Assembly: GCA_022393335.1 (NCBI GenBank)
Contig: JAJEKB010021353.1
Coordinates: forward strand, 446,142-510,141
Direction of reading: 5' to 3'
Source: Macrotrachela quadricornifera
Lineage: Eukaryota > Rotifera > Eurotatoria > Philodinida > Philodinidae
DNA length: 64,000 bases
Shown here in pieces: positions 11,569-52,619 of this stretch (position 1 is the stretch's first letter; each line of letters begins with the position of its first letter). Below the pieces are notes generated by a model. That model was not told where the DNA came from. It made no database searches and was given only the letters and a program-made list of their open reading frames with translations. The position numbers were made by a program, and so were the translations under genes.

Positions 11569-14500
11569 ATGTCACTCGCTCTGATTCAAGCAAGATTATG
11601 GTTTTTAGAACAGTTTCGTAATATTCGTAAGCCCAACAATGCAGTATTAAAAGTAAAATTGCGCGGACAGTTAAACCAACAAGCATTAGAAATCAGCTTG
11701 ACAGATATTGTTGATCGCTATGGACTCTTACTTACATTCTTCGTTGCATTGGCAGACGAAGAAAAGCAAGTAGCACAGTCAACAGAAGCGTTCGTATTTA
11801 ACACGCACGATTTGAAGTCCATGGACTGTGATGAGAGAAAAGGAGAAAATCTGTCTGCACAGGTCAAGAAAATAGAAGCGTTTACTGAAGAAGAAGCGTG
11901 CTATGTGTTTAATATGAATACGGGACCATTGTTACGAGCTCAGTTGCTAGTTCTTGGAGATGATAATTACATATTATTGTTGACCACACATCCAATAGTA
12001 GGAGATAAATGGTTCCTGGATACCTTCTGTCAAGAGTTTCCAGCATATTATACAGCACGAAGTGAAGGAAAAGAGCCTTCTTTGGTTGCTTCACCAATGC
12101 AATATGTGGACTTTGTATTATGGCAATGTTGCTGGTTGGTCAGCAGCGCTTTAGAAAGGAAAAGTACTTATTGGCAAGATCGATTACAAGGATATGAAGG
12201 TATTCAATTACCGACTGATCATTCATATTCTGACTTCCAAAATTTTAACCGACAACAGGAAACGTTTTGTTTATCTCCCACTCTGTTGTTGCGCTTTCAA
12301 GCTTTAGCATGTGAGCATCAATGCACTTTATTCACGGTATTATTAGCAGCTTTACATGTGTTACTGTACCGTTATACAGGACGAACAGATGTAGTCATTG
12401 GAACGCTGGTGACAGACCCTCATTATCCAGCAATAAAAAATATAATCCGTTTTTTTTCTGATATCCTGCCTTTACGTACAAAACTTCATCCCCAGAAGAC
12501 CTTTCGAGCATTATTACAGCAAGTTTCTGAGGAGGTACTGGAAGCCTATCAACATCGAGACGCTGTCCACTGCTCAAAAATAATAGAAATATTGGATATT
12601 CATGACCATTGCGAATATTCGCCATTTTGTCAAGTAATGCTACTGCTGCTACAAGACGCTGGAAAAGTTTCTAATCTAATGCTTCCAAACCTGGAAGCAT
12701 CATTGGATGCTAAACAATGCTGGAATCGCTACTTTAATTTAGTTTTTACCTTTCAACACAAAGCAGAAGGTTTAGTGGGTCATATAGAATACAGTACAGC
12801 ATTCTTCGTCCCTGAGACTATAAACCGTCTTATCGCTCATATAAACGTCTTATTCGACGCAATTAGCGAGTACCCTGACCAATATCTTAACACATTTCCA
12901 ATTATGACCAATGACGAGAAAGAACAACTTTTAATCAACATGAATCAAACAAATGAACGTTATCCAGAGGCGCAGACAATTCACCAATTGTTTGAAGAAC
13001 AGGTAGAGAAAACACCACATAACATTGCCTTGGTATTCGAAGAACAGTCACTCACTTACAGTCAACTAAATGCAAGGGCAAACCAAGTCGCATCGACATT
13101 ACGATCACAATACCTACAAATATATGGTACAAACTTGGTCCCTGACTCAACTATTGCACTGTGTATGGAAAGAAGTCTTGAGATGATCATAGGATTACTA
13201 GGTATTCTTAAAGCAGGTGCCGCATATATACCTCTCGATCCTAGTTATCCACCATCACGCCTTCAATATATTCTACAAGATACAAAAGCACTTTTCTTAG
13301 TAACTCAAGAACCGTTGTTCTCCTCTTTTGAAAACTATACGGGCCAAGTCTTATGCTTAGATCGTGATAAGAGAATGATCGGTCAAGCCAGTCAAGACAA
13401 TGTTCTTACACTCACACAACCACATCATCTGATTTATATAATTTATACTTCCGGTTCGACAGGTCTGCCCAAAGGCGTGGCAGTGGAACATCGCAGTGTG
13501 ATAAATCTGTGTTTCGCTTTCAATAAAATACTCAAGCTTAATGAACATTGTAAATCGACCCAATTTACCTCTTTAGCTTTCGACGCTTCGGTGTGGGAGA
13601 TTTTTCCAATGTTGCTCAACGGTGGAACTTTGCATGTACTTTCGGATGAAGTTAAACACGATGTAACCAAGTTGAGTAGTTATATTGAGCGAGAAGGTAT
13701 CGATACCGTGACATTCCTACCACCGGCTGTTTTACACATATTACCACCTATTATGAAATCTGCTCTGACTAAGGTGATTGTGGGTGGAGACAAATGCACT
13801 CAAAGTATCGTCGATGAATGGGGAGCCAGAGTCTGTCTTATCAATGGTTATGGCCCGACGGAAGCGACCGTGTGTACTCACGTTGGAGTTTGTATGCCGA
13901 ACGAACGGCCACACATTGGGAAGCCACTTTCGAATGTTAGAAACTACATTCTAGATAATGACTTCAATCCAGTACCAGTGGGTGTAGTGGGCGAAGTATT
14001 TCTTGGTGGAGCATGTCTAGCTCGTGGATACTGGAATCAGCCTGAGTTAACTGACAAGCATTTCATTCCAAATCCATTTGCTACAGATGAAGACAAACTT
14101 CAAGGAAAGAATTTAAGACTTTATCGTACTGGAGATCTAGCGAAGTACTCATCGAATGGAAATATCGAGATTCTGGATCGAATAGATCAGCAGGTGAAGA
14201 TACGTGGTTTTCGTATTGAATGTGGTGAGATAGAAAGTGTGTTATTAACTCATCCTCAGATCGCAGAAGCAGCCGTAATAGCACATGAGGTACAAGGTCA
14301 CAAACATCTCGTGGCTTACTATGTAGCTAACCGTGATCGCACAGCTTTTGATTTTCTCGTCGAAGGTGAATCACTAGATGTAGCAACACTGAGAGAGTAT
14401 GTAGCATTGCGTTTACCGGAGTACATGGTTCCTAGTTACTTTACATCTCTAAAATCGCTTCCTCTGACGATTAACGGTAAACTTGATCGAAAGTTGTTGA

Positions 14501-17500
14501 CAGATTTGGAAACTGATTCGTTGTCTTCGCGTTCAGGTTATGTTTTAGCCAGTACATCTTGGGAAATGCAATTAACGGAAATTTTAAGTGAATTAGTCGA
14601 TATAAAAAGGATAGGATATGAAGACAATTTGTTGGCTGTGGGCTTGAACTCATTGAGTTCAATGGAGTTAAGAGCACGAGTGCACAAACAAATAGGAGTA
14701 GAACTTCCTTTGAAAGAAATTTGGAAAAATTCTACTATTAGAAGTCTGGCTCGTTACATAAAGGCTTCGATGAATCGGACAACAAGAGGAAATAACACTT
14801 TCAAAATGGAGGAAGCATCTACCGGTTCTTGCCCTATTCCATTAACATTTCAACAAGAACAAATATGGTTGTTTGAGAAGTTCATGCCAGAAACCAGAGC
14901 ATATCAAGCACAATTTACTCTGGATATTCGGGGAAAACTGAATAAGCACTGGCTTGAAATGGCTTTAACTGAAATTGTGAAGCGTCAAGCCATTTTTCGC
15001 ACTGTGGTCGTGGAAAAGGATGGACGGCCACAACAAGTTATTCATGAACCTTGGACAGTTCAAGTTAGCGAAATTGATTTAAGATATCTATTTTCTGCAG
15101 TAAGAAGTAAAGAAGTTCAAAATATTTTGAATCAAAATTTTCAAGAAAAAATTGATTATTCCCGTCTACCGTTAGTACGATGGAAGCTGTATCGTGTGCA
15201 AGAAGATTATTGGATCTTTGTCTGCATAGAGCATCATTTTATTCATGATGGCTTTACATCGAATATATTTTTGCATGAGTTGCAAGCCTGTTATGAGGCA
15301 TGCAGTCGAGGAAAAACTATTAACTTACCTTCTTTAAGTTGTCAATACGCAGATTACGCAATTTGGCAGCGACAAGAGACTTCACAGCATGATTATCAGC
15401 AACAAATCAGCTATTGGATTAATCAATTATCTGTTATTGAAGGTCCACTTGAGCTAATGGTGGATAGGCCAAGATCAAGTGTTCAAAGTTTTGAAGGAAA
15501 CTGTCTACGTATACGGTTAGACGGAGAAATGATGTTGATGCTTCAACAGCTCCAACAAACGGAATACGTTACACTCTTTACTATAATGTACACGGTATTT
15601 GGATTGCTTCTGTTTAGATATACGCAACAGGAAAGATTTGTATTGGCCACAACAGTCGCTAATCGAGATTTTGAGGAGATAGAACATGTTTGCGGAATGT
15701 TTGTTAATATTCTTCCAATTTGTTTAAATTTTAGTGCCAATTTGACTTTTCAAGAATTACTTCAAGACGTTCATCGACGTCTAGGAGAGGCCTATACCTA
15801 CTCTGCGGCGCCTTTTCAAGGAATTGTTCAGCAGCTACAGCGAAATCATCGTAATTTTTCCCGCAATCCTGTTTTTGAAGTATGTTTTTCGTCTCATAAT
15901 AGCAAGAGACCGTCCTTGAAATTTGGAGAGACGATGGCAGAATTTCGAATCGAACACAATGGGACAGCCAAATTTGATTTATGTGTGATTACTATTCCTA
16001 CTTCTGAAGAAACCACCATGTTATGGGAATACAACACCGATTTATTTGAACAACAAACAATTGAACGCATGGTCACCCATTATCTCAACCTTTTGAAATC
16101 TATTTTGAAACACCCACAAGAAAAAGTTAGCCGACTATCGTACCTATCTGAAATTGAATATCATCAACTACTAATAGAGTGGAATTCAAAGCAAATGCCT
16201 TACCCGCAAGATAAGGTGATTCATCAATTGTTTGAAGAACAAGTTGAGAAAACACCACATAACATTGCCTTGGTATTCGAAGAACAGTCACTCACTTACA
16301 GTCAACTAAATGCAAGGGCAAACCAAGTCGCATCGACATTACGATCACAATACCTACAAATATATGGCACAAACTTGGTCCCTGACTCAACTATTGCACT
16401 GTGTATGGAAAGAAGTCTTGAGATGATCATAGGATTACTAGGTATTCTTAAAGCAGGTGCCGCATACATACCTTTGGATCCTAGTTATCCACTACTACGT
16501 TTACAATATATTTTAGAAGACACAAAAGCCGTTTTCTTAGTGACTCAAGAACCACTACTTTCCTCTTTTAAGAATTATACTGGTCAAATTTTATGTTTAG
16601 ACCGGGATAAGACAATAATTGCTCAAGCCAGTGAAGACAATGTTCTCACACTCACACAACCACATCATCTGATTTATATCATTTATACTTCTGGTTCGAC
16701 AGGTCAACCCAAAGGAGTAGCAGTAGAGCATCGCAGTGTGATAAACCTCTACTTCGCTCACAATGAAATATTCCAGTTCGATGTGTATTCCAAATCGACT
16801 CAGTTTGCTTCTCTAGTTTTTGATGCTTCTGTGATCGAGATTTATTCGATTTTGCTCACCGGTGGATCGTTGCATATACTTTCAGACGAAGTTAAACGTG
16901 ATGTGATCAAGTTAAGTAATTATATTGAACAAGAAAGTATTGATACTTTGACATATTTACCACCAGCTGTGTTACAGATATTACCACCTGTTTTGGGATC
17001 TTCTTTGTCTAAAGTAGTTTTGGGAGGAGATAGATGTACTCAAAATCTGGTTGATGAATGGGGAGACAAAATCTGTCTTATCAATGATTATGGTCCAACG
17101 GAAGCGACTGTATTCACTCATTTGGGAATTTGTAGTCCAAATGAGCGACCACATGTTGGTAGGCCAATTTCAAACGTTAAAACGTATATTCTAGATAATG
17201 ACTTCAATCCAGTACCAGTGGGTGTAGTGGGCGAAGTATTTCTTGGTGGAGCATGTCTAGCTCGTGGATACTGGAATCAGCCTGAGTTAACTGACAAGCA
17301 TTTCATTCCAAATCCATTTGCTACAGATGAAGACAAACTTCAAGGAAAGAATTTAAGACTTTATCGTACTGGAGATCTAGCGAAGTACTTATCGAATGGA
17401 AATATCGAGATTCTGGATCGAATAGATCAGCAGGTGAAGATACGTGGTTTTCGTATTGAATGTGGTGAGATAGAAAGTGTGTTATTAGCTCATCCTCAGA

Positions 17501-18927
17501 TCGCAGAAGTAGCCGTAATAGCACATGAGGTACAAGGTCACAAACATCTCGTGGCTTACTATGTAGTTAAACGAGGAAGTACATCTTCTGATTTACTTGT
17601 AGAAGCCGGCGATTCACGAAATGTAACAACATTGCGAGAACATGTGGCACTGTATTTACCGGAGTATATGATACCAAGCTACTTTATATCTTTGAAGTCA
17701 CTTCCTCTGACTGGTAATGGAAAACTTGATCGAAACGCTCTACCAACTCCTCATGTTCCTTTATTACTTGAGGAGACCGATTATGTTGCACCCCGTAATG
17801 AAATAGAAGCTAAACTCAAGACACTATGGAGTGAAGTTTTAGAATTGAAATCGATCGGCATTTTTGATAATTTTTTCGCTATAGGAGGGCATTCGTTATT
17901 AATTATAAAACTGTCTTTAGTAATTCAGAAATATTTTCATTGTAAATGCTCAGTAAAAACATTGTTTCAACATCCAACCATTGCTGGCCAGGCGCATGTC
18001 ATTGCCACCGCTCAACAAGAAACTGTGAGCTCTGAAAATAGTTTGATTAAAGATGCTTTATGGCCGATTAAAGTTGAGGGTGCCTTAAACCCACTTTTTT
18101 TTGTTCATCCTGGTTTTGGTTTATGTTGGCTTTACTCGAAGCTGCTCCCCTACCTTTTGCCGGAGCAACCATTATATGGTATTAATGATCCATATTGGGG
18201 ACGTGAATCTACAGAAAATTTCAGAACATTAGAAAGCATGGGAGCTTTTTATGTGAACGTGATACAAACAGTGCAACCCTCAGGTCCTTACCGTCTTGGT
18301 GGCTGGTCATTGGGTGGTAATATTGCTATTGAAATGGCGAAGTTGCTTGAAAATAAAGGTTTGTCTGTAGAAATAGTTATTTTGATTGATAGTTTTCCAA
18401 GAAAATCATACAAGATTACGATGGCAACCCGAGAAGAAGAAGCAAAGGTATTCAAGGAATTTTTATCGTCTTGTTATTTGGATGAACTATCAGTGAATGA
18501 AAAAGAAGCTTTTGAAGTTGAATATGAAAAGTTTCAAGAGATGTCACGTCATTATCAACAGAGTCATTATACGGGATGTACCGTACTATTAAGAGCTGAT
18601 CACTCTTGTAAGGTTCCAATTGTTAGTGATTATAATGGATGGGAAAATTTTCTCTGTCCTCTGCCAGAAGTCTACTCACTGACAGGCTCTCATGAGAAAA
18701 TATTTAATAGTGATAATGTGGAATCGGTTGCGAATGCTATTAACCAATGTTTGGTAGGATTACAAACAGAGAGAAGAACAACGATAGAAATTAATAGACT
18801 ATTTTCTACTTTATCTGACCAACAGAAGATGGTGAAAAACCACAGGGAAATTATTATGAGAAGTCGCAAACATCCCATAAAGACTAGTTCCTATGGTAAA
18901 GGTAGCAGTTTTTTAATGGAAGACTAA
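11569..18927 (+). CDS. non-ribosomal peptide synthetase, two modules with thioesterase (C-A-T-C-A-T-TE)
   Basis: 2452 residues in one exon; an in-frame TAA at 11536 makes this the first ATG. Domains: C1 (~1-440, QARLWFLEQF; HHxxxDG reads THPIVGD, catalytic-position His141 kept but DG reversed); A1 (~480-975, TSGSTG at 627, YRTGD, KIRGFR, NGKLDR); T1 (Ser1028 in GLNSL); C2 (~1090-1520, intact HHFIHDG at ~1222); A2 (~1560-2055, TSGSTG at 1707); T2 (Ser2109 in GGHSL); TE (~2175-2400, GWSLGG Ser2247, Asp2274, His2375). NRPSs join amino acids held as thioesters on phosphopantetheine arms; the TE releases a dipeptide-sized product, linear or cyclised. By hand alignment to GrsA the pocket residues are DAWFIGGV (A1, nearest the leucine-type codes I recall) and DAIYVGDV (A2, no match recalled). 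All core motifs except C1 look functional. Bacterial architecture without introns in an animal contig suggests horizontal transfer. No tailoring gene or transporter is nearby. Confidence 0.93.
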   Translation: MSLALIQARLWFLEQFRNIRKPNNAVLKVKLRGQLNQQALEISLTDIVDRYGLLLTFFVALADEEKQVAQSTEAFVFNTHDLKSMDCDERKGENLSAQVKKIEAFTEEEACYVFNMNTGPLLRAQLLVLGDDNYILLLTTHPIVGDKWFLDTFCQEFPAYYTARSEGKEPSLVASPMQYVDFVLWQCCWLVSSALERKSTYWQDRLQGYEGIQLPTDHSYSDFQNFNRQQETFCLSPTLLLRFQALACEHQCTLFTVLLAALHVLLYRYTGRTDVVIGTLVTDPHYPAIKNIIRFFSDILPLRTKLHPQKTFRALLQQVSEEVLEAYQHRDAVHCSKIIEILDIHDHCEYSPFCQVMLLLLQDAGKVSNLMLPNLEASLDAKQCWNRYFNLVFTFQHKAEGLVGHIEYSTAFFVPETINRLIAHINVLFDAISEYPDQYLNTFPIMTNDEKEQLLINMNQTNERYPEAQTIHQLFEEQVEKTPHNIALVFEEQSLTYSQLNARANQVASTLRSQYLQIYGTNLVPDSTIALCMERSLEMIIGLLGILKAGAAYIPLDPSYPPSRLQYILQDTKALFLVTQEPLFSSFENYTGQVLCLDRDKRMIGQASQDNVLTLTQPHHLIYIIYTSGSTGLPKGVAVEHRSVINLCFAFNKILKLNEHCKSTQFTSLAFDASVWEIFPMLLNGGTLHVLSDEVKHDVTKLSSYIEREGIDTVTFLPPAVLHILPPIMKSALTKVIVGGDKCTQSIVDEWGARVCLINGYGPTEATVCTHVGVCMPNERPHIGKPLSNVRNYILDNDFNPVPVGVVGEVFLGGACLARGYWNQPELTDKHFIPNPFATDEDKLQGKNLRLYRTGDLAKYSSNGNIEILDRIDQQVKIRGFRIECGEIESVLLTHPQIAEAAVIAHEVQGHKHLVAYYVANRDRTAFDFLVEGESLDVATLREYVALRLPEYMVPSYFTSLKSLPLTINGKLDRKLLTDLETDSLSSRSGYVLASTSWEMQLTEILSELVDIKRIGYEDNLLAVGLNSLSSMELRARVHKQIGVELPLKEIWKNSTIRSLARYIKASMNRTTRGNNTFKMEEASTGSCPIPLTFQQEQIWLFEKFMPETRAYQAQFTLDIRGKLNKHWLEMALTEIVKRQAIFRTVVVEKDGRPQQVIHEPWTVQVSEIDLRYLFSAVRSKEVQNILNQNFQEKIDYSRLPLVRWKLYRVQEDYWIFVCIEHHFIHDGFTSNIFLHELQACYEACSRGKTINLPSLSCQYADYAIWQRQETSQHDYQQQISYWINQLSVIEGPLELMVDRPRSSVQSFEGNCLRIRLDGEMMLMLQQLQQTEYVTLFTIMYTVFGLLLFRYTQQERFVLATTVANRDFEEIEHVCGMFVNILPICLNFSANLTFQELLQDVHRRLGEAYTYSAAPFQGIVQQLQRNHRNFSRNPVFEVCFSSHNSKRPSLKFGETMAEFRIEHNGTAKFDLCVITIPTSEETTMLWEYNTDLFEQQTIERMVTHYLNLLKSILKHPQEKVSRLSYLSEIEYHQLLIEWNSKQMPYPQDKVIHQLFEEQVEKTPHNIALVFEEQSLTYSQLNARANQVASTLRSQYLQIYGTNLVPDSTIALCMERSLEMIIGLLGILKAGAAYIPLDPSYPLLRLQYILEDTKAVFLVTQEPLLSSFKNYTGQILCLDRDKTIIAQASEDNVLTLTQPHHLIYIIYTSGSTGQPKGVAVEHRSVINLYFAHNEIFQFDVYSKSTQFASLVFDASVIEIYSILLTGGSLHILSDEVKRDVIKLSNYIEQESIDTLTYLPPAVLQILPPVLGSSLSKVVLGGDRCTQNLVDEWGDKICLINDYGPTEATVFTHLGICSPNERPHVGRPISNVKTYILDNDFNPVPVGVVGEVFLGGACLARGYWNQPELTDKHFIPNPFATDEDKLQGKNLRLYRTGDLAKYLSNGNIEILDRIDQQVKIRGFRIECGEIESVLLAHPQIAEVAVIAHEVQGHKHLVAYYVVKRGSTSSDLLVEAGDSRNVTTLREHVALYLPEYMIPSYFISLKSLPLTGNGKLDRNALPTPHVPLLLEETDYVAPRNEIEAKLKTLWSEVLELKSIGIFDNFFAIGGHSLLIIKLSLVIQKYFHCKCSVKTLFQHPTIAGQAHVIATAQQETVSSENSLIKDALWPIKVEGALNPLFFVHPGFGLCWLYSKLLPYLLPEQPLYGINDPYWGRESTENFRTLESMGAFYVNVIQTVQPSGPYRLGGWSLGGNIAIEMAKLLENKGLSVEIVILIDSFPRKSYKITMATREEEAKVFKEFLSSCYLDELSVNEKEAFEVEYEKFQEMSRHYQQSHYTGCTVLLRADHSCKVPIVSDYNGWENFLCPLPEVYSLTGSHEKIFNSDNVESVANAINQCLVGLQTERRTTIEINRLFSTLSDQQKMVKNHREIIMRSRKHPIKTSSYGKGSSFLMED

Positions 18928-30824: not shown

Positions 30825-32090
30825 TTACGTAGCATTGAGCCATTGATTGACATATTTATCAAAAGATGGTCTTGCAGCGCATGTTGTCTCCCTTTCACTA
30901 TATTTGACCATCATTTGATAGACATCTGCTACTGTTTTTTTGTTCTTTTCTAATCGTTTCATCAAATCTTTCAATTTCAACACTAGTGCATCATCATTGT
31001 AGACTGAATAGTTCAATTTTTTGACATTGTCAACGAGTACACTTGCAGCACATACTTGTTGAAGAAACTTGAACACAGGATTCCCACCGAACACACCACA
31101 TCCCCAATTGCCAGTTACAATTATCTCATTTCTAGCCTTGCCAAAAGCAGCCCATGTTTTACCCAAATCACGGTCGATATTACGCCGACTAAAATGATTC
31201 GACAAACAGGCATCCATAACAAGAATATCTTGAATGTGTGTTGGATTTTGATTTGGATAAGGACCAACAAACTGAAATGTTTCACCATAGCCACGATAGT
31301 CAACAAATCGTTTACAACCACGAAGAATGATGACTTCATCAGATCGTAAAGTATCACATACCAGAATAGCTAAAAATGCTTCGGGACAACAGCTAGCTAG
31401 AAAAAAGACAAACCTTTTTTTTACGAGAAAAAAGAAATTTTACATAGAATTTCTTCTTGTGTAGCCGATGACATGATTGAATAAATGTGAATCTGTTTAT
31501 TGGCAAAATCAACAAAGCCATGTGCTCCTTCGCTCGTTTCCATTCGTTCGGAAAATATATTTGTCTTAGATTCTTGAATCATAACTAATTGTTTTTTCCA
31601 ATCAGGTAATTCTTCAGTTTATGAATATCGCTCGATCGAAATTTCTCGATGATCATTGTTATTTTGTTGCTGTGCTGAAAGACGAAAATATTCAATCAAA
31701 CATCATATTCGTTCGATAGCTACACGATCAAATGGTACATGGTATAGATCGGTCAAATCAATACTACCGTATCCTTCAGTCGTATTTAGAAAAAAAGCAT
31801 TCGCCAGAATATAACGAGCTTGAGCAGATGTATAAGTGACACGAGCAGTAATATTTGCTTGAAGAGGTTAAATTGGATTTGACTGAGTATGGTCTGAAGC
31901 CCATTGAGCAATAATAGGAAGAAGATCGTGATAGAAATCGAAGTTAAGTTGACGAATAACTAAATCCAGATTGGAACATGATCGATACTTTTTGTTAATG
32001 AAAAACAGATCTGTAAGTGTTGAAAAATCAACATTATCTTCTGAAATAACAATTGTACGTTTTTTGGCAATGTATGTTATAGAGGCGGCG
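30825..32090 (-). pseudogene. poly(ADP-ribose) glycohydrolase (PARG) pseudogene, 5'-truncated
   Basis: PARG removes poly(ADP-ribose) from proteins. The minus-strand frame holds the PARG-family parts in order: VTYTSAQARYILANAFFLN, GYGSIDLTDLY, ERMETSEGAHGFVDFANK, SATQEEIL with the paired glutamates, VDYRGYGETFQFVGPYP, and the diagnostic VTGNWGCGVFGGNPVFKFLQQV near 31110. One 47 bp GT-AG intron (31397-31443) splits the QEE region from SSCCPEAFLAILV. The usual glycine-rich GGG loop before QEE reads IHIYSIM, so the family may be a divergent PARG branch or the site is damaged. In-frame stops near 31869, 31704 and 31620, and loss of the N-terminal part at an hAT-like end (~32090), make it a pseudogene. 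The 3' part remains open to a normal stop. Confidence 0.72.
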
Positions 32091-35065: not shown

Positions 35066-35482
35066 CATCAACTTCCACTAAGGATGCAACAAATCTTGAA
35101 TCAAATTTGGATTTGGCCCCAAATCTTTGGGGTTTGGTTAGGTTTTGGATTTGTATGTTTGTGTTCGGATTTTGCTCGGATTTGCATTTTGGTTGAATCT
35201 GGAGGCTTAAATTTGGATATGGTTTGGATTTAAATGCTTAGAGTTGAGTGTAAGTTTGGATTTGGTGCTTGAGGNNNNNNNNNNCCTCAAGCACCAAATC
35301 CAAACTTACACTCAACTCTAAGCATTTAAATCCAAACCATATCCAAATTTAAGCCTCCAGGTTCAACCAAAATGCTAATCCGAGCAAAATCCGAACACAA
35401 ACATACAAATCCAAAATCTAACCAAATCTAAAATTCCAAACCCAAAACTTTGGGTTTGTTACATCCGTAACTTCCACAAAAT
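35066..35482. repeat. TTTGGATT-word palindrome with an assembly gap in its loop
   Basis: The left arm (35066-35274) and right arm (35285-35482) are near-perfect reverse complements. The 10 N at 35275-35284 sit exactly between CTTGAGG and CCTCAAG. Each arm is built from variants of TTTGGATT. The gap probably marks where a hairpin stopped assembly, and the true loop length is unknown. Confidence 0.75.
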
Positions 35483-40795: not shown

Positions 40796-41565
40796 ACTGA
40801 AAGCATTGTGTAAAAAAAATTTACTGTATCACGTTGGACAAGCCGAACTATTCTGCAACATAAGTAAAGAAAAAAAAGTAGGCGCCCATCAAGTCTTATA
40901 TGGAATCCTCTGAAGTTATAAATCGTTTCGTCTTCAACCACGCTTTCCTAGGTATTATTCGTGATGCTGGAGCCATTTGCGCTACTAGTCGGTTTCTGGC
41001 AGATTGTCTAGAAATCATGCTTCTGAAAAACATACTATTTTGGTACGAATCGGTATGTCCGAATCGGTTATCTTGCAGAGCATCCAAAAACTAGTAGCTT
41101 TGAACCCGACTTTTTGTTCATTAATTACTATTTCTAAGTGCCACACAGTGCATTTGGACATCTCTGGAATACAGCTGCTAACAGCCTACTGTAGATTAAT
41201 GAATAGCAAATTTTCAGAAATTGTTTTTTTTAAAACTAGTCAAACGTTCACTGGCAGTCAAAATAACTTGCAGAACCGGAATCAGGATGAAAAATCACCT
41301 ACAAAAATGTGTCTTAAGAGACAAAACGTGTAATCGGTTAGGACGGTTTCTGCATCAATAGTTCAGTAAACCTTCAGCAGAGAACTTTAAACGGAGTAAC
41401 TAGGTGTTGCCTGTTTATATGTAAGCGGTTTGTGTTTGAAAAGCGAAAATTGCGAAGTTGAACTTCATGTATTTGCGTAATAGCTTTTTTCAAAATATAA
41501 AGATTATTTCTCTGTAAGAAACCAACAGCATTTTGCATTTTGTTATTGCATTTGCTTTGTGATAG

Positions 41566-43029
41566 GTAAACAGCAATGTATGGATGGAACTGATGAAGAT
41601 TATTGTGACAAACTGGAATACAATGAATGTGAAAGCGATGAGTATCGTTGTGCAAATGGTATGTGTATACCAGGAGAATATTGGTTAGATGGAGATTTTG
41701 ATTGTATGGATTGGTCGGACGAAATAGGAGGATTCGGCATTAGTGGTGAAGATTGTCTATATAATCCAGACGTTGAGTGCGACGAACATTTCTGTCTGTA
41801 TGACTCTTATTCTTGTGGGAATGGTCATTGTTTTTATAGTGGAACGAATCGTTTCACCAATGAACTCAATGGATTACCCATATACTGTTCGAATTATCGA
41901 GAGTCGAACTATTTATGTGAAGCCGTCAGTAGATTTGGGGAATTTCCACACTGGACTATTAATGGTGGTTACTGTATACCGTTTAAACTACCGTATAAAA
42001 GAATGGGTTTGGATACCACATTACAAACGAATAATTGTATTTTTTGGATAAAGTGTGCTTTGACAAACGGACTTGACTCAGATTGTCCGTGTCCAGCGAG
42101 ACTCAGCCCATGTGAAAGATTAATTGACACGAGCTGTCCAGAAGAAATTCAGTATCCCTCCGAAGGTAATATTTTAACACCATATTTAAAGATGAAATAC
42201 GTGCGCCAAAAAAAAATTGGTTGGTACAAAAATAATAAGGTGCCAGGTGGATTTTACTACCAAGGCACTATCAAATGTTCTGGATGCCGTATTCTTTCTA
42301 CTAATGAAACATTCGTCGATTTATTTCCTGATGAATTGTTGCAGTTTGGCAAAATTGAGTCCACTATCTGTAATTTGGAAAATAGTTTTGACAAATATGG
42401 TAAAATTGCAATATATCGAGATTATTCAGGCTCACAGTATGATTTTAACTGTTGGAATGAATCTACAACATTTACTAATCTTACATATAACATTTCATTC
42501 GTTTGTGGTGATCGATGTATCTCTTCGTATCGTCTTCGAGATGGATTAAACGACTGTCCAGATTTAGATGATGAAGACATTGGGAACAAGATGTCGTTTA
42601 ATCCGTTATGCTCAGGTCAACAAAGATACCGTTTACAATGTTCATCTACCGAATTAGCTTGCCTACTGCCGATGATAATTGGTACATGGGCACCAGAATG
42701 CGAAAATGGAGCAGATGAATATTCATATGAAAATGGACAGGATTTGAAAATTATTGATGCTTGTTTATTACGTAATGATCCTGGGTGCAAGTTTTTTCGT
42801 AAATATATTCAGCAGTCCTCTTCTGTCAAACACACTGACAACATTCATAATACAAGCGCGGGTTTTTATCAATCTGATAACATTCCATTTGCCTACTATT
42901 GTGATTCAATTTTTGATACGGATACAACGTTTGATGAATCACTGGATCTATGCCGCAATTGGATTTGCCGTTCCAGTGAATACAGATGTTTAAATGGACA
43001 GTGTATCGTGGTAGATGCCGTTTGTAATG
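41566..43029 (+). CDS. receptor gene exon 2: LDLR-A module series
   Basis: Completes the split LDLR-A module and continues with CESDEYRCANGMCIPGEYW...DCMDWSDE, CLYDSYSCGNGHC, a long cysteine-spaced middle, CGDRCISSYRLRDGLNDCPDLDDED and CRSSEYRCLNGQCIVVDAVCNG. The repeated Asp/Glu pattern before the last cysteine is the calcium-binding signature of class A modules. It ends at GTAAGTGG (43030), phase 1. Confidence 0.82.
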
Positions 43030-43293
43030 GTAAGTGGTTAAAATTTGATTCATAGAGCAAAACTGCATTTAGTGAAACCTAGAAGGATGTTATGAATAAA
43101 AAAATCTATGGAGGAGCAAAAGATAACTCTGGTGTGCGAGAGGAAAAACATGAAAAATATCTTTTGTAGTTGCGATGAAAAGAAGGGATCTTTTTTTTCT
43201 TGATATAGATTCAGATATTCAAGAGAATTTGTGGCTAGATTTGGGATACTAAAAGTACACTATTATTATGTTATTCTATTTCTCTACATCTAG

Positions 43294-45231
43294 GTGAATG
43301 GGACTGTGCTGATGCATCAGACGAACAACGACTTTTCATTATGAATGAAACTGATTTTGGGGAACATAACAAGAAGTTATTTGATTTGTCAGATGTAAAA
43401 GAGAAATGTTATGATATATATAACAATGCAAATACACCATTTTCGTTCATTTGTAATATTAAACAAGAATATCCTTGTTTCCTTGTCAAAAGCATTAATC
43501 AGTCAAATCTATTTGATTTAGAAGAAAATCGTCCTTGCATCAAAATAAATCAGATTGGTGATGGTAAAATCGATTGTATTGGAGGTCTTGATGAACGCAA
43601 CAGACTACAATGCGCAAACATGGGCATGCAAGGATTTCATTTTCGTTTTATGGATGGCACATGTCTTCCATATCATAAACTTTGTGATGACTGGATACCA
43701 GGCAAACACGTTGAGCATGACACAGTTTGTTTTCATAGGAAAGCGGAATATGATGAGGAAAATTTTGGATGTGATGGTCCGAAAGATGCAACTTGTTTTG
43801 ATCAAACCTGTACAAAAAAAGGTCGATGTGATGAAAAAATTGATTGCGAATATGGAGAAGATGAATATTGGTGTAACATTAAACAACCATTTTCCCAGCT
43901 TGTTTACCGTCCACGTATTGGTTCTAATGTTCCAGTTATGGTATTGCCATCTTATCCAATTTTGATTACAAATTCGAATCAGCCAATAGAGCCACATAAT
44001 TCTTCAATCAATTCAAAAAATATACTCAAATCAACACAAAAATCTCATGGTAATTACAAGATCAACTCATCTACACTACGCAAATCAATTTATAAGTTAT
44101 ACGCCGAGACGTTCGAAGGTAACAATTTTAAAAATAAATATCTACCGTTTATCTGTAATCGTGGTCTGGCTGTAATGGATCAAGTAGAAGAAACAATTTG
44201 TTTTTGTCCGCCTAGTTATTATGGCATGCAATGTGAATACCAGAGTGATCGAATTACACTTGAAACACATTTGAATTTGAAAAATTATCGTGTTCACGAT
44301 CTATCAGTTGTTATCAAAGTCCTGGTTACGTTTTTATTTATAGATCGCGTAATTGACTATTATGAATTTCATGTACATCCAACTCTTCAAACTGAAGAAA
44401 ATTTTGTTAAACATATCATTTATTTTCTATATCCACGAACAGAAGAATTTCTGCAAATGAAAAGAACAAACCGGAGTGGTACTCAGTTATACAGTGTACG
44501 ATTCGAAGCATTTGATTTATATCAAAACAGAACAATTGATCTTCGTGGTGTTTGGAATTATCCGGTATACTTTGATTTCTTACCAGTTTATCGTTTAGCC
44601 AAGATTTTACATTTTCCACAGATAACAACTGACTATGGTTGTACTCACCGGCTATGTGGTAGGAATGGAGCATGTCATTTAATCAATAATAAGCATGATT
44701 CTTACTATTGCTTCTGTAACAAGGGTTATTACGGACAACATTGTGAATTTTTTGACAAAATATGTATAAACGAATGTGCTTCGAATGCAGTTTGTCGTCC
44801 AGGCGAACGGGGTATTCTAACCCTTAATCAGCAACCATTATGTATATGTCCAGCAAATACATTCGGTCCAACATGTCATGTAATGGTGGATCCATGTTAT
44901 CCTAATCCATGTCTGAATTTTGGTGCTTGTTACACTTCTTATGAACTTAATCGCACTGAAGGTTATATCTGCATTTGCGCAAATCGATTTTTTGGTGATC
45001 AGTGTCAGCATTTCAAAACACCGGTCAACATACAACTGAATTATAACTTATCTATCTATAATATTGTTGCATCAAGCATTCAATTTTATGATTACGATGT
45101 GATGAAGTTAGATTTGATCCTCACCCATCATCATGTTTATTCAGGTACACCCCAACGTCTTTTAGTATATCACGATCTTCGGCTAGCACCGTTTCTATGT
45201 ATTATGAAAACATATAACACAGATGCTCAAT
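43294..45231 (+). CDS. receptor gene exon 3 (5' part): LDLR-A and EGF modules
   Basis: Begins at an ACATCTAG acceptor and finishes the module begun in exon 2 (GEWDCADASDE). Further LDLR-A-like units (CIGGLDERN, DATCFDQTCTKKGRC...DEYW) are followed by an EGF (CFCPPSYYGMQCEY), a ~150-residue non-cysteine stretch, and three EGFs (YCFCNKGYYGQHCEF, CICPANTFGPTCHV, CICANRFFGDQCQHF). The frame is lost at the insertion point; residues after MKTYNTDAQ come from the insert and end at TAG 45243. Confidence 0.8.
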
Positions 45232-45405
45232 TCTCTTTCTCGTAGAGAAGAGTCTTGCAAACATAAATTGTCTGCTTGCTTGATTGCTTGATTGCTTGAT
45301 TGCTTGTATGTCCGCAGGGTCAAAGGAACATCCTATAAGAGTTCAAATCCGAAACAGTTGTTTTTCGACCAACTGATGACATCTCGGTGGTGGATGATGA
45401 CCACC

Positions 45406-45415
45406 NNNNNNNNNN
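45406..45415. other. assembly gap (10 N) inside a direct repeat
   Basis: ACATCTCGGTGGTGGATGATGA before the gap and ACATCTCGGTGATGGATGATGA after it are near-identical, so the gap probably hides a tandem repeat of a unit containing these bases. Confidence 0.7.
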
Positions 45416-45707
45416 ACATCTCGGTGATGGATGATGAATACTATTGTATATGATGATGGTACATGCATTGATCAATCGATGTTAGGAATTGAAAATGTGT
45501 GATTCTTGTTGAGTAGAAATACATCAACAGTAGCGATTAGGCAAATATAGGGAGTGCCTATTTTGTAAGAATCTTTACGCTTGAAAAATCGATTAGAGTT
45601 CAATGTGTGAAGAAATATCATGTTGAAAAATAGTCAGTTTGATGCCTATGGCGCTATAATCACTAACTATCGTTGTAAAGAGAAGTTTAAAATGAAACTC
45701 ATCTATC

Positions 45708-46392
45708 GGATAACAAGACCGAGCTTCTTCCTGGCCTCTTACCCTTCGTACCAAACATGCCTGTACTTCTCACCGATAACATCGCCTGTGAACTAGGACT
45801 CTCAAACGGCACTCAGGGTATTTTTCGACAACTCATATACGATGATCAGGAGGAGTCAGATGCTTTCAAAGTGAAGAGTGATGTATTTCCCTCAAATACC
45901 ATATACATACGAAAGCCATTGTATGCGCTTGTGGAAATTAATACATCACAAGTAGAAACAAACCTTGATGGTCTTCGTCCTAAACTAATACCTATTCCAT
46001 TAATCAAAAAGCGATTTACTGTTCCAATTAAACAACTTTTCGGACATCTGTTCGAACGAGTGCAAGGTGGAAGAAAAATTCCACAAGTGATTCAAGTTAC
46101 TAGAACACAACTGCCAATTGTACCTGCCTTCGCAATAACTACTTATAAGGCACAAGGACTAACAATGAACAAAATCGTGGTCGATCTTCAAGTTCCACTT
46201 GGAACCTTGCAAGTCGCATCAATTTATGTACCACTCAGTAGAGTGAAGAGAGCGGAAGACATAGTCATTCTTCGACCTTTCGACATGAAAGTTCTACAAG
46301 TTCGACCTACTTCCGCTCAAGATGCCGAGCTGAAACGTTTAGCTGAACTTGACAGAAAGACAAAACGAGAATGTTCTTCTTTCACTTTTTGA
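45708..46392 (+). pseudogene. C-terminal part of a Pif1-like/Helitron helicase
   Basis: The frame from about 45708 (DNKTELLPGLLPFVPNMPVLLTDNIACELGLSNGTQG) leads to IPIPLIKKRFTV, TQLPIVPAFAITTYKAQGLTMNKIVVDL and ASIYVPLSRVKRAEDIVILRPF. These are the late SF1 helicase motifs (the A-IT-YKAQG motif V and the VPLSRV motif VI arginine) of Pif1-family enzymes, including those of Helitrons. Walker A/B and Rep parts are absent, so it is a fragment. Its stop at 46390 is normal. It travels in the exon 3 insertion. Confidence 0.72.
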
Positions 46393-46832
46393 ACGTATAT
46401 AAATAGATACTTTTCTATGAAATTATAGCAAGTTTATAAGACGTACCATAATATAAAATTGTCATAAGATAATTATTCATCTATATTCATTTTCTTTATT
46501 TACATCTATGTTAATCATCGTAGTTGTTACTTAACTTTCGTTGTCTGATATTTTCTATAACATATTTTCTCGCTTTCTTTTTTTACTGTTTTTTTCTTTT
46601 TAATGTAATTACTTGGATCTTCCATCTGTTGTGTTATTTGAAAAACGTAATCCTCTATCAAAAATTTTGTGAAAACATCTGCTATTCTACATGCAAAAGT
46701 ATATAATTTGAATCAGAAATAAACTAATACATACAATACTGTACTAAAAATGTATTATCTGGAAGAAGCCCATCTACGAGAAAGAGCTGAGCGAGTGCCC
46801 GCACGAGCGTTACTTGTTAAATATGCCTCATT

Positions 46833-46943
46833 ATTTTGTTCTTTATATTCAACACAACATTACAGATATCAATATCACAAGTGGTTTAATGAAGGAAAAT
46901 TTCTGTCCAGATGTTCGTCAATTGTGGCATTTGATTGAATCAA
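46833..46943 (+). CDS. receptor gene exon 3 (3' part) after the insertion
   Basis: The frame reads YFVLYIQHNITDINITSGLM...NFCPDVRQLWHLIES and ends at GTAGGT (46944). With phase-1 splicing to 52620 it gives IES-N-NSTFNASKAVF. The phases on both sides agree, which is the main support for assigning this 37-codon piece to the receptor. Confidence 0.68.
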
Positions 46944-48135
46944 GTAGGTTGAGTCAATATCCAGATGAGTTATCAATTTTAACAATCTATACTTATTACT
47001 TTTTCAAAAAATAGGATAATTAAGCAGGATGCTAATAGCTTTTGAACAGAAATAGTTAGAAACCGTTGGTTACCACTATTGAATAGAGCACACTAGATAA
47101 CATATGGCGATGTAAATCGATAAGATTGTAGTTCCACAATCCTACGATAAATCTTGACTTCCAAACAGAGTATTAGATAGTTTGAATCGAAATCTACAAT
47201 TCTAGACAAGTCCGAAAATTGTAAGTCTTATGGTCCAAGAGCTGTTCGTATGCTGCGAGTGAGATGTCTATTTCAGTCTGGACACGTCTAACAACTCAAA
47301 AAATCCTTGTTACATCGATGATCGATCATGCTGCATGTCGTGGCAATATCTCTTGTTTTCTAGCAATGGGCTGAATTACAACTGAGCCAATTTCTGAAAA
47401 AAAGAAAAAGTCATGTGCAAACTCTCTAAAATGAAAATATTCATAACTAAGCCATTTTTTATTCAAAAATCGTTGAAATGTTTCAGTTCAACGTTTTTGA
47501 ATCTTTTCATTTTAGAGAATTTATACGTAAATCATTCTTTTTTTAGAAATCGTGTCAGTTGAAATCAAGGGGGAAAGTGCTGGCATCCAGCACCGAAAAA
47601 CACTGAAAAGTGCTGGACAGGTGCTGAGGTGCTGAGCAGGTGCTGAGGTGCTGAATAGGTGTTCAGGTGCTGAGCAAGTGCTGAGCAGGTGCTGAGGTGC
47701 TGAATAGGTGCTGGATGGGTGCTGAAGTGCTCAGATGCTGATTGATTCTTTTAGGATACTACATAAACTAAACCATTGCATTGTGATTGATTAAGAGTGT
47801 TCTCTGTCAGATTCATTATTGTACTTCAGTACTAGCGAACTTTTTTGTGCCTAATCAGAAATTTACCCATCTTACAAAACTGTCTAATTCTAATTCAATT
47901 TTTTTACTCAGAAGAAACTCATTTTTGTGCTGTTTCTCTGATAAAAAAAGAGGAAATTCCGTTAAATATCTTTCAGTTACTTTAAGAATTCGTGTTTGTA
48001 CCAGGGGATGAAATGCTTTATTCATACTATTTAAAGATAACATGTTGTCCTTAATATAACAAACTGTTCGTCTCATGATATTGTTTTTATGGTAAAGCTA
48101 TTTATCTATCTATCTCTCTCTCTCTCTTTATATAT

Positions 48136-49050
48136 ATGTCGGAGTTGACTTTAAAATTCAGTTGCCTTTAAAAGACAGGTAGTTCACTTTAAAATTGAAA
48201 AGTCAACTAGGATGGAGCCAGTTGACTTTAAAGTCAACTGGTTCGTTTTAAAATGTATAATCATAGTGTTAATGATACGATAAATAACATTATAGTCAAT
48301 AGATAAGATTGGGACAAAGAAATGAACATTGAAGAAAAACATAAATATAGTAAAGAAGAAATTGTACGATCCATTATTAATAGATGCAGAAAATATCTAG
48401 CAAATTATGCATCTTGAACTTTTATCGTTATTATATTTTGTACAATATTTTCTGTTGTTAAACATTAAACAACCTGATTGTAGCTTACTTCACGGCACGT
48501 TTTATCTTTTCACAGGCGCCCGACAGATAAATGAGATTCATAGAGAGTTTTAAATAGATTCTCATATTTTACAATTCGTAAATTTTCCTTTTGGTGAATA
48601 CGCCACGGATTGATGATTAATTTTAACCATAGTAAAACGTTTTTTTGCCTAAAAATAAAATTGAGGATCGTACTTGTTTACAGTTGAGAATATTTGTACA
48701 ATTTTTTCATATGTTTCAGCTGTTACCAAGCACTTCGTTTGTCGTTTAACATTCAACTCATTTAAATAAGCGTCTAACTTTGAGTAGAAAGCCGTCATTA
48801 CTATTAAATGTGATGATGGTTCGGTAGTTAATAAATAATGCTTTGCTAAATTCAGATCGAAAAGTTTCCATCAGTTAAAAACCATTCATTATCGATTAGT
48901 GCATAATAGCTTCACGATTATACATTTTGAAGTCAACTGGCTCCATCCTGGTTGACTTTTCAATTTTAACGGCAACTAGTTGTTTCTTAAATTTTAAAGC
49001 GAACTAGTTGCCTTTTAAAGGCAACTGAATTTTAGAGTCAACTCCGACAT
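48136..49050. mobile_element. MITE-like element with ~110 bp inverted ends made of GTTGACTTTAAA words
   Basis: Starts ATGTCGGAGTTGACTTTAAA and ends in its reverse complement (GAGTCAACTCCGACAT). The inverted ends extend about 110 bp and contain several GTTGACTTTAAA / AGTCAACTGG words and a shared GGATGGAGCCAGTTGAC. It is flanked by TATATA on both sides, so a TA or TATA target is likely but not provable. The ~650 bp middle has no gene. Confidence 0.65.
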
Positions 49051-49104
49051 ATATATATATATGTATATTAGTCAGTGTCTGTGTGTTTCTGTGTCGGATC
49101 AATG

Positions 49105-51050
49105 GTTAAATAACGCTATAGGGGATACTATATTGGGATAACCATAGGTTCCGAAGGACTATTATATGAAGGTACTCTTAGGTTCTCAAGTCCTACGATA
49201 TGAAGGTATCCTTGGAACCTCAAGAGCTATTATATAGGAGTACCCATAGGTCCTCAAGCCCTAGTATATGGAGGTACCTATAGGTCCTGAATAGCTATTA
49301 TATGAGGCTACCCTTAGGTCTTCAAGTTCTATATATTAGGGGTACCCTTGGGTCCTCAAGTCCTATATTGTGAGGGTAACTCTAGCCCCCAAGTCCCATA
49401 TTCTGGGGGTACGCCTAGGTCCTTATTCACTATCATATGGATGCGTCTCTAAGACCTTATACTCTATCAAATAATATTATCCATACGTGCTCAATAGAGC
49501 CCTGCACTGGAGTCATTTCGGAGTCGTTTTTGGAGTCAAGAAAACTTTATCGCAATAATTCATTTTTGACATGAAAGAATTTTTGAATTGAAAATCTTGT
49601 TCTCTGATATTTTCTCTACAAATTGATGTGTTTTAAAAGACCTCATCGACATCTTATCGAGGCTTACGGACTGGATAGAAAGTCGGAGTCAAAGTTGACT
49701 CCGATTTTTTTGACTCCGATTTCGACTCCGACTTTCTATCCAGTCCGTAAGCCTCGATAAGATGTCGATGAGATCTTTTAAAACACATCAATTTGTAGAG
49801 AAAATATCAGAGAACAAGATCTTCAACTCAAAAATTCTTTCATGTCAAAAATGAATTATTGGGATAAAATTTTCTTGACTCCAAAAACGACTCCAAAATT
49901 ACTCCAGTGCAGGACTCTAGTGCTCAACTTCTATCTTACGTGGATTGCAGTAACCCTGTTCTCCTTATAGAAAGTTTTAGCACCTGAGATTATACTTTCA
50001 AAATGATAGATCGCATTGGCAAACTCCTTGGTTTCCAGAGGCAATCCTATGCTATACTATGATTATAAGGGAACAAAGGCATGCTGAAATCCGATTGGTC
50101 AATTTTTCAGCCAATCTGATTTTAGGAGGTTTTTTCTCTCCTACACTTAGAGTGTAGCATAGGGTTCTCTCTGGTAACCTGGGGTTCTCAATGTGATCTA
50201 TCATTCATAACCCAAAACCTCATGTATTAAACCATCTTATAAGGGAAAACTGGCTTGCTGCAATCTCATTAGCGAATTTTTCAGCCAACCAGATTTTTGC
50301 AGGGTTTTGCTCCCTTATAATTATAGTATAGGATAGGGTTGGCTCTAGGAACTCAAGGGTTTCTGAATGTGATCCATCATTTTCAAAGCACAACCTCAGA
50401 TGCTAAAACTTTCTATAAGGAAGCATGCGGTTACTGCAATCCGCGTAAGATAGAAGTTGAGCATGTATGGATAATATTATTTGATAGAGTATGAGGTCTT
50501 AGAGACGCATCCAGATGTTAGTGAATAAGAACATATAGGTATCCTCCCACTATGGGACTTCAGAACCAAGGGATATCCCCAGAATGTAGCACTTAAGGGT
50601 CTTGGAGTACCTGCAGAATATACGACTTGAAGACCTACGAGTACCGTCGGAATATAGGATATGAGGATCCAAAGGCACTCTCCCAGTATATAGGACTTGA
50701 CGACCTAAGGAAACCCCTATTATAAATGACTTGAGGAGCTAAGGGTATCCCCAATGTACAGGACTTGAGGGCCTAAGGGTACCCCTATTATATACGACTT
50801 GAGGACCTAGAGGTACCCTTCCAATATAGGACTTGAAGATCCAAGGGTACCCTCAGAAAATTGGATATGAGGACCCAAGGGTACCCTCAGAAGATAGGAT
50901 ATGAGGACCCAAGGATACCCCCAAAATATAGGATATAAGAACCTGAGGGTATCCTGAGAATGTAGGACTTGAGGACCTAGAGGTACCCCCGGAGTATAGT
51001 ATATGACGACCCAAGGGTACTCCCGGAATATAGGATATGAGGACCCAGTC
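49105..51050. repeat. large palindrome with ~34 bp GGTACCC-type tandem arrays in both arms
   Basis: The left array (49130-49440, ~9 units of ~34 bp: TATGAGGGTACCCTTAGGTCCTCAAGTCC-like) is the reverse complement of the right array (50540-51045, ~14 units). Inside the arrays the arms also match: GGATGCGTCTCTAAGACC...ATAATATTATCCATAC on the left pairs with 50455-50515. The left arm is broken by the small palindrome at 49495-49919. The frames seen on the minus strand here come from the repeats. Confidence 0.7.
49495..49919. mobile_element. 425 bp near-perfect palindromic hAT-type MITE with 8 bp TSD
   Basis: GTGCTCAA at 49487-49494 recurs at 49920-49927. The inverted ends TAGAG(C/T)CCTGCACTGGAGT continue as near-perfect ~200 bp arms that meet near 49710 around a GACTCCGATT-rich centre. 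It interrupts the left arm of the larger palindrome, so it is the younger of the two. An 8 bp TSD fits hAT. Confidence 0.82.
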
Positions 51051-51689
51051 GGTTTGTACTTGTACATCTCTACTTCACAGTATCCACAAGTGCCAAGCAG
51101 ATGTTGGGCAGGTGCTGGGCAGGTGCTGGGCAGGTGCTGGGCAGGTGCTGAGGTGCTGAGCAGGTGCTGAGGTGCTGAGCAGGTGCTGAGGTGCTGAGCG
51201 GGTGCTGAGGTGCCAGGGTGCTGGGTGCCAGCACTTTCCCCCTTGGTTGAAATCCAGTCGGCTGCTAGATAAGCACAAGCATTATCACAATACGCAGCAT
51301 TACCGATCGCTATGTAACAAGGGCTTTTCGAATTGTCAGACGTTTCCACACTGAAATAGACACCCACTCACTGAATGCTTAGAATTCTTAGACTATAAGC
51401 CTTACAATTTTAGAGCTTATCTAGAATTGTAAGTTTCGATTCAGGCTGTCGAATGCACTATGTGGAAGTCAACATTCATCGTAACATTATAGAAATACAT
51501 ATTTGTCGATTTCGTATCAAAAAGATTACTATGGTGAACTTCATTCGAATACCCAATTTTATCATAGCCTCATGTTCTCAATATGTCCTATCCAATACTG
51601 AAAACCGGGTGTTTTTGATCCCTTTTGTTCAAAAGTTATAAGTATTTTTCCCACTTATCTCTTTTTACGAAAATAGTATTAAATATACT

Positions 51690-52521
51690 AGGTTGGCAAC
51701 GAAGTCTTTGCGTTTTTTTTTGAAATTGTTCTAGAACATTCGAGAAAGTTCTAGAAGTATGTGGAAAAAAATTTGCACGGATTAGGCAAAACATGGAGAT
51801 ATGGAGTTTGGATACCCCATGGATTATCACCATATCAGCTGCAATACAGGATTGATGCATGTATGGGTTTAATCACATCTCACCGCAACTATCAATGGCT
51901 CCGCAATCTTATCACTGGTGATGAGAAGTGGGTATTGTATGTTAACTACACGCATGGACGCCAATGGCTAAGTCCTGGTCAAACAGGCATAGCAACACCT
52001 AAGACTGGCCTACACTCCAAGAAGGTGATGCTGAGCGTCTGATGGGGTGTCAATGGGATTATTCATTGGGAAGTTGTACCAAATGGTTGCACCATCACTG
52101 CTGATCTATACTGTCAACAATTGGATCGGATTGCCGAAAAACTCAAAGGAAAGCAGGATCGAATTTACTATTTGCATGATAATGCAAAACCACATGTTGC
52201 AAAGTCGACCTGTGAAAAATTATTGAACCTCGGATGGATTACCATTCCTCATCCACCTTATTCTCCTGACTTGGCTCCAACGGACTACCATTTGTTTCGT
52301 TCTCTCTCTCATCATTTGGCTGAGAAAAAATTCGACAACGAGAACGACCTAAAAATGGATATCGCCAACTTTTTTGATCAAAAATCCAAGAACTTCTACA
52401 AACGCGGAATCCTGTTTTTACCAGAACGTTGACGACAAGTCATAGATACTAGTTGTACTTTTGAAGTTGAAAAATAAAATTAAAATTTTTGAAAAAAATG
52501 CAAAGACTTAGTTGCCAACCT
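51690..52521 (+). mobile_element. internally deleted mariner transposon with matching ends
   Basis: The ends AGGTTGGCAAC(G/T)AAGTCTTTGC are inverted copies at 51690 and ending 52521. A full mariner is ~1.3 kb; this one is 832 bp. The coding part (51770-52460) reads VWIPHGLSPYQLQYRIDAC, ITGDEKWVLYVNYTHGRQW, YLHDNAKPHVAKST and PPYSPDLAPTDYHLF, which holds the three acidic residues of a DD34D catalytic triad. The N-terminal HTH half is deleted. TGA replaces an expected TGG near 52040 and again near 52430. It lies 98 bp before exon 4 of the receptor, inside the intron. Confidence 0.78.
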
Positions 52522-52619
52522 GATAATATAAGACGAGCTGTTCGTTGAGACATCAAGATGGTGCTTATTATCACACAATCAAATGATTAAACTAAATTTT
52601 TTTCTCTGATTTCTTGCAG

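Follow-up and report, generated by a model that had tools for sequence, protein, structure and literature searches.

In bacterial NRPSs, recombination of the adenylation (A) domain core brings in a core from another A domain, and specificity changes, as outlined in excerpts of a report on wolG1 A2 in wollamide synthesis (PMC9205934) and of a survey (PMC8097286). Hotspots of recombination are described around the substrate pocket in Pseudomonas, Bacillus and Streptomyces (Calcott 2020, PMC7486941), upstream between motifs A2 and A4 and downstream from close to A5; the excerpted text also describes the A2–A4 region as highly prone to structural perturbation, and attempts to engineer exchanges of parts of A domains there as having failed. 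In the mcyA2 A domain of microcystin synthetase, by the account in the available part of PMC3640908, gene conversion replaced almost the entire specificity-conferring portion. Bdelloid rotifers are described as having many NRPS clusters, thought to be horizontally acquired, and module duplication, mobilisation and recombination are suggested in general terms in the accessible passages (Nowell 2024, PMC11258130; Genes 2023, PMC10531068). In a literature search at the level of titles and the starts of abstracts, neither gene conversion nor recombination of A domains was reported for animal NRPSs.

Here we describe a two-module NRPS gene in an animal-type genome, the first A domain (A1) of which carries two stretches that are nearly identical to the second (A2), on either side of a diverged core. 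The probable cause, in our view, is recent gene conversion with A2 as the donor and A1 as the recipient, in which two tracts flank a pocket core that the resident gene retained. Like wolG1 A2 and bacterial A-core recombination as excerpted (PMC9205934 and PMC8097286), the locus has a mosaic within one A domain, with a core of one history, flanks near those of the sister domain and breakpoints around the pocket; unlike them, it appears to have imported the flanks and kept the resident core, and it lies in an animal-type genome. The breakpoints, one at motif A2 and the other between A5 and A6, are similar to the hotspots in the accessible text of PMC7486941, although those come from many bacterial sequences and ours from one gene. 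The portion of Baunach 2021 (PMC8097286) that is available describes a trend to an intact Asub, whereas tract II here passes motif A8. Gene conversion as a process in an A domain would be shared with mcyA2 as excerpted in PMC3640908, but the specificity-conferring portion is here the part left alone. As in the bdelloid NRPS/PKS genes of PMC11258130 and PMC10531068, an NRPS lies in what looks like an animal genome and recombination seems to have shaped its modules; the excerpts of those reports are without a conversion tract inside an A domain, its direction or its date.

The window, the whole stretch of 64,000 nucleotides that was analysed, sits on contig C4660 of a 450-Mb assembly of 5695 contigs. 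One uninterrupted ORF on its forward strand (11569–18927; 2452 amino acids) encodes the NRPS in the order C1-A1-T1-C2-A2-T2-TE (Table 1), with Pfam matches over the cut-off for AMP-binding (two), Condensation (two), PP-binding (two) and Thioesterase (one); C, A, T and TE domains all lie within this one protein. Both A domains carry the signature motifs YTSGSTG, FDAS, YGPTE, YRTGD and NGK, as read off the alignment. Close likeness between the modules is limited to the A domain (residue identity of 84% for A1/A2, 25% for C1/C2 and 29% for T1/T2). The HHxxxDG motif is present in C2 (HHFIHDG) but not in C1, which reads HPIVGDK (11989–12009), with the second histidine replaced, both here and in two homologous loci. 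This departure suggests that C1 is inactive or altered in all three loci; it lowers any claim of C1 activity and leaves the NRPS assignment unaffected, because the defining domains are all present. A structure model of A1 (mean pLDDT of 75; poor over about residues 295–413) gave GrsA PheA (1amu) as the best match in a fold search; the model and the search only confirm the fold.

Table 1. Coordinates in the window of the NRPS gene, its domains and the zones of A1 (G and H are homologous loci in the same assembly)
Feature	Coordinates	Strand	Basis
NRPS gene	11569..18927	+	Single ORF; Pfam domains
C1 domain (ends approximate)	11569..12918	+	Pfam; 88-89% nucleotide identity to loci G and H
A1 domain, module 1, probable conversion recipient	12979..14502	+	A1-A2 homology spans 12979 to about 14496
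Tract I (5') in A1, A2-type	13006..13226	+	1 difference from A2; start possibly already at 12979
A1 core, older paralogous sequence	13227..13947	+	dS 0.77 to A2, 0.69 to G
Tract II (3') in A1, A2-type	13948..14326	+	3 differences from A2, 0 synonymous
C-terminal rim of A1 up to motif A10, apparently unconverted, core-aged	14327..14496	+	dS 0.87 to A2, 0.61 to G
T1 carrier domain	14572..14760	+	Pfam stretch; T1/T2 29% amino acid identity, unrelated to T2 at paralogue level
C2 domain (HHFIHDG at 15232-15252)	14836..16173	+	Pfam; C1/C2 25% amino acid identity
A2 domain, module 2, probable donor	16219..17745	+	dS to G: tract I 0.37, core 0.33, tract II 0.38, rim 0.41
T2 carrier domain (ends approximate)	17770..18000	+	Pfam; comparison with homologous loci
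Thioesterase domain	18091..18531	+	Best Pfam stretch

Elsewhere in the window, gene pieces with LDL-receptor and EGF domains extend over 41484–53956, with an end that looks membrane-receptor-like by eye (no Pfam match), and between these pieces lie a mariner-like transposase (51755–52432) and a helicase-like fragment below the Pfam cut-off (45691–46392). A fragment of poly(ADP-ribose) glycohydrolase (PARG) is on the reverse strand at 30825–31439, and a tandem array with 34-base spacing (9 overlapping 170-base copies) occupies 50512–51057. A palindrome with 143 matches over 149 bases has a 10-N gap (35275–35284) at its centre and may be a contig end that was joined to its own reverse complement.

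A fixed offset of 3240 bases aligns A1 with A2, exactly so over the range of the initial annotation, which had reported it, and becomes 3243 only after a later 3-base indel. Along this alignment, 2 of 223 bases differ between 13003–13225 and 16243–16465 (at 13005 and 13128) and 3 of 378 between 13948–14325 and 17188–17565 (at 14150, 14248 and 14270), close to the one and four or so differences first noted by inspection; the intervening core (13226–13947), described then as clearly diverged, differs at 151 of 722. Likelihood change-point segmentation over the 1518 aligned A1/A2 bases, with the number of segments chosen by BIC, favours four segments: 12979–13226 (4/248), 13227–13947 (151/721), 13948–14326 (3/379) and 14327–14496 (44/170), with steps at 13226/7, 13947/8 and 14326/7. 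Uniform divergence along both A domains, which would have spoken against a mosaic, was not seen; near-identical tracts with sharp edges lie inside older paralogous sequence, as gene conversion would leave them. None of 20,000 shuffles produced runs of identical codons that matched the observed ones in length. BIC does not support the diverged 5′ edge (12979–13005; 3 of 27 bases differ) as a segment of its own, so tract I may start where the homology starts (12979). It also gives no separate tract to a stretch of the core at about 13383–13465 in which A1 and A2 are unusually alike.

The same contrast is present at synonymous sites (Nei–Gojobori dS with Jukes–Cantor correction, scripted; several tests used rounded counts), and protein constraint is therefore not the whole cause. 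Between A1 and A2, dS comes to 0.02 for tract I and 0.00 for tract II, as opposed to 0.77 for the core and 0.87 for the C-terminal rim. No difference in A1–A2 synonymous change is seen between core and rim (p = 0.74); being equal in synonymous age, they indicate that the tracts are unusually young and not that the core is unusually old. Over the roughly 137 synonymous sites of the two tracts together, a single change is counted (upper confidence bound, 4%). The A1–A2 dN/dS of the core is about 0.18, that is, under purifying selection, and thus both A domains look used.

A DNA search of the assembly with A1 returned five places: A1 itself, A2, a locus that we call G (on contig C4463) and two A-domain pieces at the edges of a gap in a locus that we call H (on contig C4635). 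Locus G (L033, C4463:215713–220227) is a single-module C1-A-T2-TE gene with one full-length A domain. Its C1 is frameshifted and its A core is interrupted by a stop, so that, sequence errors aside, G is probably a pseudogene. Locus H (L009/L010) has C1 and T2-TE, with a 10-N scaffold gap (C4635:320998–321007) inside the A domain. A reading of H as a true 4.4-kb deletion was dropped because the junction is this gap. The gap edges are equivalent to 13025 and to 14194/17434, within the same near-identical blocks, so these blocks evidently gave the assembler difficulty. In C1, G and H share 95% identity, with dS of 0.04–0.24 in the downstream pieces compared; both are more distant from the window locus (dS of 0.27–0.47 in T2 and TE; C1 88–89% identical). 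DNA searches of the assembly found one copy of the window locus and no second. These distances fit G and H as a pair resembling alleles, with the window locus as a homeologous copy at a greater distance, the arrangement of bdelloid rotifers.

Comparison with homologous copies had been proposed as a check in the initial annotation, and locus G gives a direction, A2 into A1. A2–G pS is near uniform (tract I 0.29, core 0.27, tract II 0.30, rim 0.32), whereas A1–G pS is 0.31, 0.45, 0.30 and 0.42 in the same zones, with dS of 0.41 in tract I, 0.38 in tract II, 0.69 in the core and 0.61 in the rim. The core exceeds the tracts in synonymous change between A1 and G (p = 0.009) but not between A2 and G (p = 0.70; both on rounded counts). 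Given that A2–G distance is uniform and that A1–G is older in core and rim only, A2 is the likely positional orthologue of the A domain of G. Site patterns are in line with this. In tracts I and II, A1 and A2 agree against G at 68 of 72 sites, G agrees with A2 against A1 at 4 and with A1 against A2 at 0. In core and rim, the largest class (118 of 229) has G with A2 against A1, 63 sites have G with A1 against A2 and 48 have A1 with A2 against G; the counts leave out 10 sites at which all three differ. The share of A1 = A2 sites against the other two patterns differs between the tracts and core plus rim with a Fisher p of about 1e-30, for sites that are not fully independent. Together, the zone pattern of A1–G distances and the site patterns point to A1 as an older paralogue that received both tracts from A2.

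A single outgroup copy, the broken locus G, thus supports the direction: by that copy the transfer looks non-reciprocal, as the donor keeps its orthologous history and the recipient does not. The tail of locus H agrees in part only. Of 24 informative sites in its piece of block II, A1 and A2 agree against H at 22. Over 44 codons of that block, H–A2 dS is 0.78–0.83, as against 0.27–0.47 in T2 and TE, and G is 0.50 from A2. The rim of H is like A2 at 18 sites and like A1 at 15, with A1 = A2 at 10. The opposite direction, A1 into A2, was considered from the H tail alone and was reversed by the full A domain of G.

On its left, the A1 core (13227–13947) begins within or just past motif A2 (13207–13242); on its right, it ends between motifs A5 and A6. 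All pocket residues had at first been placed in this core; that is correct for 9 of the 10 code positions, and the tenth, the A10 lysine (14479), is in the 3′ rim and is identical in A1, A2 and G. With the code positions set by motif, the nine core residues read D-A-W-F-I-G-G-V-C in A1, D-A-I-Y-V-G-D-V-F in A2 and D-A-I-F-T-G-D-V-Y in G. A1 and A2 differ at five of the nine; I239 and D322 are common to G and A2. Enrichment of change at pocket positions (5/9 versus 57/232 elsewhere) is borderline (p = 0.051).

Two explanations had been offered for the footprint at the outset, recent gene conversion limited to the flanks and a sub-domain swap into a duplicated module. The synonymous ages of the zones and the direction given by G favour the former. 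For the latter, module 1 would be a recent copy of A2 with a core then replaced from another A domain, as in bacterial NRPSs. The breakpoints do flank the pocket core and lie near bacterial ones, around the A2–A4 interval and from close to A5, as far as the excerpted reports go (PMC7486941; PMC8097286; wolG1, PMC9205934), and the five differences between the codes are in keeping with such a swap. But the rim (14327–14496) is as diverged as the core, so that a swap would have to involve two replacements, both from one old lineage. Core and rim are equally old, and the core is no nearer to another module than the history of its own domain would have it. The DNA search found no donor core, and no other A1-type core, in the 450-Mb assembly. 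Among 15 protein-database A domains, the A1 core is the sister of the A2 core, with balanced branches and support of 100/99, and not foreign. A core swap from a third module was set aside as the main reading, given that core and rim are of one age and that the DNA search of the assembly found no donor, and we regard an A-core swap as unlikely.

Slightly less probable still is that one long A2 tract (about 13006–14326) covered A1, including its core, and that the old core was regained from an unconverted allele. The two tracts do lie either side of one core and their ages are compatible (1/221 and 3/379), but two events and an unseen allele would be required, and the DNA search found a single copy of the window locus. 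We give very little credence to an assembly artefact, in which repeats were collapsed, or a gap was filled, such that both modules received a single consensus of blocks I and II. The gap edges in locus H do fall inside these very blocks, and 10-N gaps occur at two other places, both in the window, one of them centred in a palindrome. However, there is no N within the gene, the copies differ at 4 positions in 13006–14325 outside the core, and reads should collapse only if the true copies were near-identical already, which a pair at dS of about 0.8 would not be.

In the reading that we prefer, gene conversion from A2, A1 and A2 are old paralogues within one two-module gene. Recent non-reciprocal homologous recombination would have copied A2 into A1 in tracts of about 220 and 380 bp that adjoin the pocket core on both sides, presumably as two tracts rather than as one long tract with the core restored. 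A1 would have kept its own core and C-terminal rim, and each module its own pocket on a common flanking scaffold. The core may have been spared through selection for two distinct pockets, through lower homology in the core or by chance; the data do not separate these three.

The homologous loci differ by a whole module, as T1–C2 DNA (14520–16218) was found once in the 450-Mb assembly, with no DNA relative elsewhere by search, and G has a single module. On this comparison, either the window locus gained A1-T1-C2, or G (perhaps also H) lost it. Recombination between A repeats would be an easy route to module loss; that A1 predates the split of the loci agrees with loss and also with gain from a source that is no longer present. 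The assembly has at least 75 condensation-domain matches, several of them arrayed on one contig (for example, C4465, C4255 and C2866). In 25 NRPS stretches around part of these 75 matches (L004–L008 and L011–L030), A domains are mostly about 26–38% identical and many are partial, and L008 has one 34-residue A-domain piece at 53% identity (both among the best 12 rows per query).

Relatives of the NRPS gene outside this genome reach up to 47% identity (best 120 of 7985 protein-database matches) and 48% (best 120 of 7989), and a third protein search (all 85 matches) gave 53% over 35% of the query and 51% over 81% (P0130 and P0122). No relative above 53% identity was among the protein matches listed (best 120 of 7985, best 120 of 7989 and all 85), nor was there a rotifer name among those of them that bear a name. 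We infer a horizontal origin for the gene and, from the contig, an animal host that is, less surely, bdelloid-rotifer-like. The third-position GC of the gene (0.31) resembles that of four other ORFs in the window (0.24–0.35). Bacterial contamination is made less likely by other contents of the contig, namely the LDL-receptor/EGF gene, the PARG fragment, and fragments of mariner-like and DDE_Tnp_1_7 transposases; animal telomere repeats in tandem were not found within the window. The initial annotation had left two possibilities, a footprint inherited at transfer or recombination that continued afterwards. The evidence favours the second: with 1 synonymous change in about 137 sites, against a locus-split dS of about 0.33, the tracts are much more recent than the divergence of the homologous loci within this genome, as conversion after transfer would make them.

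These observations suggest that NRPS recombination of the bacterial type, with similar breakpoints, acts on a gene that has settled in an animal-type genome. A footprint of a 'swapped core' can arise inversely, by overwriting of the flanks, so any claim of a core swap should first be checked against an outgroup copy. The related one- and two-module loci make module gain and loss in an animal directly testable. More tentatively, and with more doubt than confidence, NRPS lines in animals may evolve after transfer through recombination between A repeats, among one- and two-module copies in a degenerate-tetraploid-like genome, with the scaffold homogenised and the specificity core spared by selection. 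If this were true, NRPS products could diversify without sex or further transfer.
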